Below are positions 3,616 through 56,165 of a DNA stretch of 64,000 bases, in pieces. The DNA lies in the NCBI GenBank assembly GCA_016212475.1, contig JACRGC010000004.1, positions 1-64,000 of the forward strand, given 5' to 3'. Below the pieces are notes generated by a model. It made no database searches and was not told the DNA's origin. It worked only from the letters and a program-made list of their open reading frames with translations. The stretch's first letter is position 1; every line of letters starts with the position of its first letter. The translations under genes were made by a program, and so were the position numbers. Origin of the DNA: Microcaldota archaeon. GTDB lineage: Archaea > Micrarchaeota > Micrarchaeia > Norongarragalinales > SBBD01.

Positions 3616-3641
3616 CTTTTCTTTTTAGGGAAAAAGAAAAG
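3616..3641 (-). terminator. Hairpin between tRNA-His and hisS
   Basis: A perfect 11-bp inverted repeat, CTTTTCTTTTT and AAAAAGAAAAG, flanks a 4-nt loop. It sits between the 3' end of tRNA-His and the hisS start. On the minus strand it could end or process the tRNA transcript, or act in the hisS leader. The role is inference. Confidence 0.5.
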
Positions 3642-3647
3642 GTTGAG

Positions 3648-3758
3648 GGCGTAGACTGAGATTTCCACTTGCCTTGCCCTAGATTTGAGCAACGCATTTT
3701 GAACTCAGGTCGAGGGCTCCACAGGCCCCAATCCTAGACCAGACTAGACGATCCACGC
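3648..3758 (-). tRNA. tRNA-His (GTG) with a ~36-nt intron in the T-loop
   Basis: Read on the minus strand, the acceptor stem is GCGTGGA/TCTACGC. T8 and A14 are present and the D-arm contains GG. The anticodon stem is GGGGC/GCCCT around CTGTGGA, giving anticodon GTG. The variable loop has 4 nt and the T-stem is CTGAG/CTCAG. The nucleotide before position 1 is G (3759) and the discriminator is C, which are the two tRNA-His identity features. The T-loop has 43 nt instead of 7. Removing 36 nt (about 3662-3697 to 3665-3700, ambiguous by 3 nt) restores TTCAAAT and a 75-nt tRNA. The intron holds a hairpin TTGCTC/GGGCAA. CCA is not encoded. I could not draw a strict bulge-helix-bulge by hand. Confidence 0.85.
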
Positions 3759-3759
3759 C

Positions 3760-26728: not shown

Positions 26729-27033
26729 AAGGCGGTGGGTGGGCAACTAACCTGATCCTTAAACAGGATAAAGGAGGAAGTTCTTCCCGTCCGGATTAAA
26801 TGTCTGCAAATCGTATCAAAGCGAATTGCTTAAGGCAATATGCGGGGAACAGAAACGATATCTTTTTCCATCTGCAATGATGCATAAGAGCAAAGATGGT
26901 AAAAAGAGTGAAACGGCCCCACTTAGCAATCTGCATGCAGGTAGCAATATTTTGCATGCGGAGGGACGCAAGGCGTAACGCCGCTAAGACCAATGTTGCC
27001 AACAACAAAAGGGAGACTACGGCCCGCCGCCTT
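26729..27033 (+). ncRNA. rnpB: RNase P RNA (archaeal type)
   Basis: About 305 nt, absent from the ORF track. The ends pair as P1 (AAGGCGG/CCGCCTT). P3 is ATCCT/AGGAT. Conserved region I is GGAGGAAGTTCTTCC. Region II is ACAGAAACGATATC and region III is GGTAAAAAGAGTGAAACGG. Region V is ACAAAAGGGAGACTA. P4 forms as AGT-[T]-CTTCC with GGGAG-ACT, including the universal bulged U. CCATCT/AGATGG and GCATGC/GCATGC helices fit the specificity domain. RNase P RNA removes the 5' leader of pre-tRNAs. A T-run (TTATTTTTC) follows the 3' end. Confidence 0.88.
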
Positions 27034-55866: not shown

Positions 55867-55869
55867 AAG

Positions 55870-55941
55870 TGGGCCCATAGGGAATTGAACCCCACGTCTT
55901 TCGCACGTCAAGCGAACGTCTTACCGACCGACTCTGGGCCC
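55870..55941 (-). tRNA. tRNA-Val (GAC) with unusual positions 8 and 14
   Basis: 72 nt on the minus strand. Acceptor GGGCCCA/TGGGCCC, anticodon stem TTCGC/GCGAA around TTGACGT (anticodon GAC), T-arm TGGGG-TTCAATT-CCCTA, discriminator A. No intron and no encoded CCA. The D-arm is GTC/GAC with GG present. Position 8 is G instead of U and position 14 is G instead of A, so the usual U8-A14 tertiary pair is missing. Confidence 0.85.
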
Positions 55942-56041
55942 AGAACATGAAGAATACTTTTTCTCCTGAAATCCTTAAATACCAATAACAAACCTCCAAT
56001 TGATAACAAACCAATAGAGGAAGCTAATTCTCCGCCAAATT

Positions 56042-56086
56042 AGAGGGGGAGCGAGCACTTTGCTCAAGGGGGAAACCTCCCCCGAC
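56042..56086. repeat. Hairpin-rich spacer between tRNA-Val and tRNA-Ala
   Basis: Contains GAGC-ACTTT-GCTC and GGGGG-AAACCT-CCCCC, another G-run/C-run hairpin of the kind seen elsewhere. Confidence 0.5.
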
Positions 56087-56093
56087 GCAAAGA

Positions 56094-56165
56094 TGGACTC
56101 GACGGGAATTGAACCCGCTGTCTCCTGCATGCCATGCAGGCGTGTTACCGGTCCACTACGAGCCC
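56094..56165 (-). tRNA. tRNA-Ala (GGC)
   Basis: 72 nt. Acceptor GGGCTCG/CGAGTCC includes the G3-U70 pair that marks tRNA-Ala. T8 and A9 are normal, D-stem GTG/CAC, anticodon stem CCTGC/GCAGG around ATGGCAT (anticodon GGC), T-arm GCGGG-TTCAATT-CCCGT, discriminator A. No intron and no encoded CCA. Confidence 0.95.

Follow-up and report, generated by a model that had tools for sequence, protein, structure and literature searches.

A predicted T-loop intron at position 59/60 of the tRNA-His gene adjoining hisS in a Micrarchaeota-type archaeon

Introduction

Under the BHB rule, a central helix of four pairs is expected and the RNA is cut after the second bulge base. Positions reported for noncanonical archaeal tRNA introns include 53/54, 56/57 and 59/60 (PMC4090602). 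BHB motifs in the T-loop have also been mentioned, the relaxed ones being said to be removed by epsilon2 enzymes (PMC6379350), and relaxed BHB forms count as substrates for both the epsilon2 and the (alpha-beta)2 enzymes (PMC4033280, PMC6379350). Intron-rich tRNAs, with introns at various positions, have been described in ARMAN-1 and ARMAN-2, together with an epsilon2 endonuclease bearing the ASL lysine (PMC4033280, PMC12397907, PDB 4FZ2), and for Thermoproteales it has been reported that several tRNAs within a genome can carry similar introns (PMC4033280). According to a paper of 2016, the only archaeal pre-mRNAs with introns were those of Cbf5 homologues (PMC4810243).

The locus described here lies in a window of 64,000 nucleotides, the whole stretch of DNA that was analyzed. 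Its putative intron is like those published at 59/60 and 53/54 (PMC4090602; PMC6379350 for the T-loop) in position, BHB-like sites, small size and predicted cutter, EndA; whereas the emphasis of the published work is on Crenarchaeota and Nanoarchaeota, it is found in a Micrarchaeota-type lineage and in tRNA-His. The endonuclease type and the occurrence of introns at various positions are shared with ARMAN-1 and ARMAN-2, but this is a different genome, with a recurrent T-loop set sharing sequences within it. The likeness to Thermoproteales is that similar introns occur in different tRNAs of one genome; by contrast, the phylum is another one, the shared elements are mostly at 59/60, and similar hairpins are also present outside tRNAs.

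Results and Discussion

The minus strand encodes tRNA-His(GUG) at 3759..3648, a gene of 112 nt (3648-3759) composed of GGCGTGGATCGTCTAGTCTGGTCTAGGATTGGGGCCTGTGGAGCCCTCGACCTGAGTTCAAA (5' exon), ATGCGTTGCTCAAATCTAGGGCAAGGCAAGTGGAAA (intron) and TCTCAGTCTACGCC (3' exon); coordinates of all features are collected in Table 1. Removal of the 36 nt restores TTCAAAT and yields a complete tRNA with a GUG anticodon and a cloverleaf made up of acceptor stem GCGTGGA/TCTACGC with a G-1:C73 pair, D-stem GTCT/GGAT, anticodon arm GGGGC-CTGTGGA-GCCCT and T-stem CTGAG/CTCAG. ARAGORN and Rfam did not detect the unspliced gene, and Rfam at a relaxed E-value returned chance matches only, tRNA-His not being recovered, whereas the spliced form was identified as tRNA-His(gtg) by ARAGORN. 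An essential tRNA is thus missed by two standard RNA finders in such genomes. The original prediction of a T-loop intron in a tRNA-His adjoining hisS was borne out, with small corrections: the stems, G-1 and C73 that it placed within 3648-3758 are all present, except that G-1 lies at 3759, one base beyond that limit; the mature tRNA, given as 75 nt, has this length without G-1 and 76 nt with it; and hisS, correctly placed on the same strand, is one base pair closer than the 60 bp proposed.

Table 1. Features of the tRNA-His locus and related elements. Plain numbers are positions in the window; G000 is the genome under study.
Feature	Position	Strand	Basis or remark
tRNA-His(GUG) 5' exon, G-1 to A59	3698..3759	-	sequence, tRNA-likeness score, covariance model
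Predicted 36-nt intron ATGCGTTGCTCAAATCTAGGGCAAGGCAAGTGGAAA, T-loop 59/60	3662..3697	-	central helix UUCA(54-57)/UGGA, 5' site AA|A, 3' site AA|U; boundary chosen by pairing among four equivalent excisions
tRNA-His 3' exon, U60 to C73	3648..3661	-	sequence, tRNA-likeness score
hisS, histidyl-tRNA synthetase, 442 aa	2260..3588	-	59 bp downstream of tRNA-His, same strand
Hairpin CTTTTCTTTTTCCCTAAAAAGAAAAG	3616..3641	-	gap between tRNA-His and hisS; similar ones recur in genome, some inside tRNA introns
32-nt BHB-like insert in rtcB	G000:C17:51490-51521 (L292)		
Related introns	G000 C2:48954, C2:52456, C6:52751, C7:163434, C7:294977, C12:40608, C16:16318		
Tiny ORF upstream of tRNA-His	L147, L148, L149, L154, L157, L158, L160, L163, L164; Woesearchaeota L072, L074, L078		

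The best excision of 33-39 nt from the locus reached a tRNA-likeness score of 35. Among 5988 random 112-mers of the window (mean 17.8, s.d. 2.3) the sole score of 35 was that of the tRNA-His locus itself, followed by 28, and the maximum in 1500 shuffles of the segment was 26. Mature tRNA-His sequences, its own and those of 12 relatives, some of which (G001, G002) were spliced by us beforehand, were aligned: 99.7% of the stem cells were paired and 15 of the 22 stem pairs showed two-sided changes, a result matched by none of 500 shuffles. The covariance model built from these 13 sequences, which include the spliced form of this very gene, gave 3648-3759 as its top match at 80.3 bits, the runners-up being Glu (64.5 bits), then Gly and others according to ARAGORN. 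A second intact tRNA-His, which the original prediction had named as an objection, was sought with the same model and not found in the assembly, the next matches being other tRNAs; since the assembly is 91.6% complete, a further copy is still conceivable. Combined, these results confirm that the tRNA-His locus with its 36-nt insert is genuine.

An AAA repeated at both ends of the insert allows four equivalent excisions (56/57, 57/58, 58/59 and 59/60), all giving the same mature tRNA. Inspection by eye showed that 59/60 alone provides a 4/4 central helix, the other three providing 2, 3 and 2 pairs. In the 59/60 arrangement, UUCA of the T-loop (bases 54-57) and a UGGA close to the intron's 3' terminus can form four pairs, one of them G-U, and both splice sites adjoin this helix. 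The corresponding structure has an energy of -18.3 kcal/mol versus -18.9 kcal/mol for the unconstrained T-arm fold, a gap of 0.6 kcal/mol from the MFE, and the 53-nt unspliced T-arm folds with z = -4.5. The His intron does not form a strict BHB (4-bp central helix, two 3-nt bulges, flanking helices): its inner helix is offset from the strict register and, on the 5' side, the bulge AAA lies opposite an unpaired AG in a 3x2 internal loop, making it a relaxed BHB, with the 4/4 central helix and a fitting 3' bulge, AAU.

The splicing endonuclease, whose type the original prediction had singled out as informative, was examined by sequence comparison. The EndA encoded at G000:C14 matched ARMAN-2 EndA (4FZ2, epsilon2) with 427 bits over nearly its full length, and the residues aligned to the catalytic Y236, H251 and K282 and to K161 of the ASL (ARMAN-loop) are all kept. 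Judged by its sequence, the endonuclease of this genome is of the epsilon2 type. Each of the 31 relatives with a completeness of 90% or more has EndA, in most cases with the same double match of about 400 aa. An RtcB ligase is also encoded and, with an EndA of broad specificity, completes the enzyme set for an EndA-spliced intron, so that the organism's own enzymes would very probably be able to remove the 36 nt.

The only rtcB of the genome is itself split by an insert of 32 nt, ACGTTTAATTGAGTTTCAAATAAACGGACTAA, which falls at the junction GGVGY^DINCG. Without it the frame is full-length and matches P. horikoshii RtcB with 594 bits and no gap at the junction. The insert can be drawn with an inner helix of six pairs (CGUUUA/UAAACG), the bulges AU|A and AA|G, and a central helix, GGUU/GACU, containing two wobble pairs; its unconstrained fold differs from this BHB-like one and is not significant against shuffles (31/500). 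It is possible that the insert is a pre-mRNA intron in the gene of the exon ligase itself, and the literature searched yielded no report of an rtcB intron; alternatively, rtcB may be a broken gene. Because its frame is interrupted, a working ligase depends on this insert also being spliced.

The restored mature tRNA, the relaxed BHB and the presence of an epsilon2 EndA and of RtcB argue that the 36 nt are very probably an EndA-spliced archaeal tRNA intron, of a kind and at a position already published, here in a Micrarchaeota tRNA-His. According to this, the epsilon2 endonuclease would cut the precursor at AA|A and AA|U, RtcB would join the exons, the ends would be finished by RNase P and 3' processing, and G-1 would be kept for HisRS. 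We consider it highly probable that this tRNA-His(GUG) gene is functional and that a noncanonical intron lies in its T-loop at 59/60. A real intron cut instead at 56/57, 57/58 or 58/59 is unlikely: the repeated AAA makes the four excisions indistinguishable in their product, but the full central helix forms at 59/60 only, and it is this position that recurs across the class, accompanied by a register-specific helix (see below).

Very improbable is a dying pseudogene that a random insertion has broken, the functional copy lying in the part of the genome missing from the assembly. The incompleteness of the assembly would accommodate such a copy; against it stand the intact stems, G-1, C73 and anticodon arm, the failure to find another tRNA-His in the assembly, the conserved place before hisS, the splice-like structure that bounds the insert, and the seven other tRNAs of the genome with T-loop introns. 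That the 36 nt are retained as a tolerated extension of the T-arm is hardly credible; although the unspliced arm folds well, its retention would destroy the elbow between D-loop and T-loop, whereas excision restores TTCAAAT exactly and splicing enzymes are present. An assembly or sequencing artefact, which a draft of 17 contigs might harbour, can be given equally little credence, as the insert fits a splice-site structure and T-arm introns that differ from this one are present in tRNA-His of relatives.

Among those relatives, tRNA-His of G001 and G002 carries introns at 37/38 and 53/54, with CCUG/CAGG helices and AG|C and AA|U bulges, that of G005 introns at 37/38 and 59/60, and that of G026 an anticodon-loop intron; the gene is intron-free in G006, G018, G021, G003 and G015. 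Across 147 genomes of the class, the pattern GTTCAAA-N10-40-TGRAAATC gave about 205 matches versus about 18 for the reversed control (hand tally, in which one row may have been counted twice). Thirty pattern loci were inspected: 11 had a perfect T-stem and 9 were called as tRNAs by ARAGORN once spliced (Phe, Leu, Glu, Lys, Asp, Pro, Arg), a single one of the 9 being called unspliced, and most of the other loci look like chance. Among the matches listed, three-pair inner helices occurred in the predicted register in 53/150 cases, as against 4-6/150 after a shift of one or two bases. Predicted 59/60 introns with a register-specific inner helix are therefore recurrent in the class. The statement in the original prediction that T-loop introns are rarer does not apply to this lineage, given these figures and the at least seven other tRNAs of the genome that carry them. 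Since such introns appear widespread in the class, the lineage is well suited for studying the spread of tRNA introns and the tolerance of epsilon2 enzymes for relaxed substrates. A looser 59/60 pattern gave 88 matches in the genome under study and 110 in the control, which exceeds them and makes this pattern uninformative by itself; none of seven candidate regions that it supplied proved tRNA-like on reading.

The other tRNAs of the genome with putative T-loop introns, at least seven, are Lys(CTT), Met(CAT), Ala(TGC), Val(TAC), Gly(CCC), Leu(CAG) and a further Leu-like one, with boundaries set by eye. Several of these introns start with (A)CGCCTTGC and finish with GGCAAGGCA-UGAAAA or similar, and the anticodon-loop intron of Thr(CGT) starts in the same way; shared sequence is clear in the introns of the Lys, Met, two Leu-like, Ala, Val and Thr(CGT) tRNAs. 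The CGCCTTGC pattern had 16 matches in the genome versus 1 in the control, about half of them outside tRNAs. The related introns (CGCCTTGC...GGCAAGG, with TTTCTTTT hairpins) lie in different tRNA genes, mostly in the T-loop, and may indicate that introns have spread within this genome. A 16-base 3' match, GGGCAAGGCAA..GGAAA, links the His intron with the Lys intron; it was equalled in 1 of 2000 shuffles and is the best of eight comparisons. This hints that the His intron may belong to a putative family of T-loop introns spreading among the tRNA genes, of which it could perhaps be a short member. Tentatively, and with more doubt than confidence, the invariant T-loop UUCAAAU might be a recurrent landing site for spreading EndA-spliced introns, with the His intron an internally deleted member, and the splicing system might feed back on itself through a 32-nt BHB intron of rtcB: as the only rtcB carries it within the conserved GGVGYDINCG motif, the mRNA for the exon ligase would itself have to be spliced.

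Of the 26 members of the order that have hisS, most carry tRNA-His upstream of it, as do three Woesearchaeota records. This arrangement is kept in many relatives with or without introns, indicating that the placement beside hisS is unrelated to the intron. The hairpin CTTTTCTTTTTCCCTAAAAAGAAAAG is present only once in the window, where further copies were sought. TTTTCTT..AAGAAAA hairpins were observed there and at about 20 other places in the genome, several beside or inside tRNA genes, and the pattern had 23 matches in the genome versus 3 in the control. In many relatives, tRNA-His and hisS are preceded by a tiny ORF of 7-15 codons ending in ...LLH, CLH, YLH or CIH (e.g. MKGGLLH*, MERNLLHQEY*, MNRVDCLHKE*), which was not seen in this window. 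It could be a His-sensing leader peptide or, possibly, an RNA motif instead, since the CTTCAT codons hardly vary. The conserved ...CTTCAT motif that precedes tRNA-His was also considered as a C/D-box guide RNA, a reading set aside, no conserved D box being apparent by eye. Elsewhere in the window, an archaeal RNase P RNA was observed at 26731-27031 on the plus strand, just above the Rfam gathering score, and tRNA-Val(GAC) and tRNA-Ala(GGC), both intron-free, at 55869-56165 on the minus strand.
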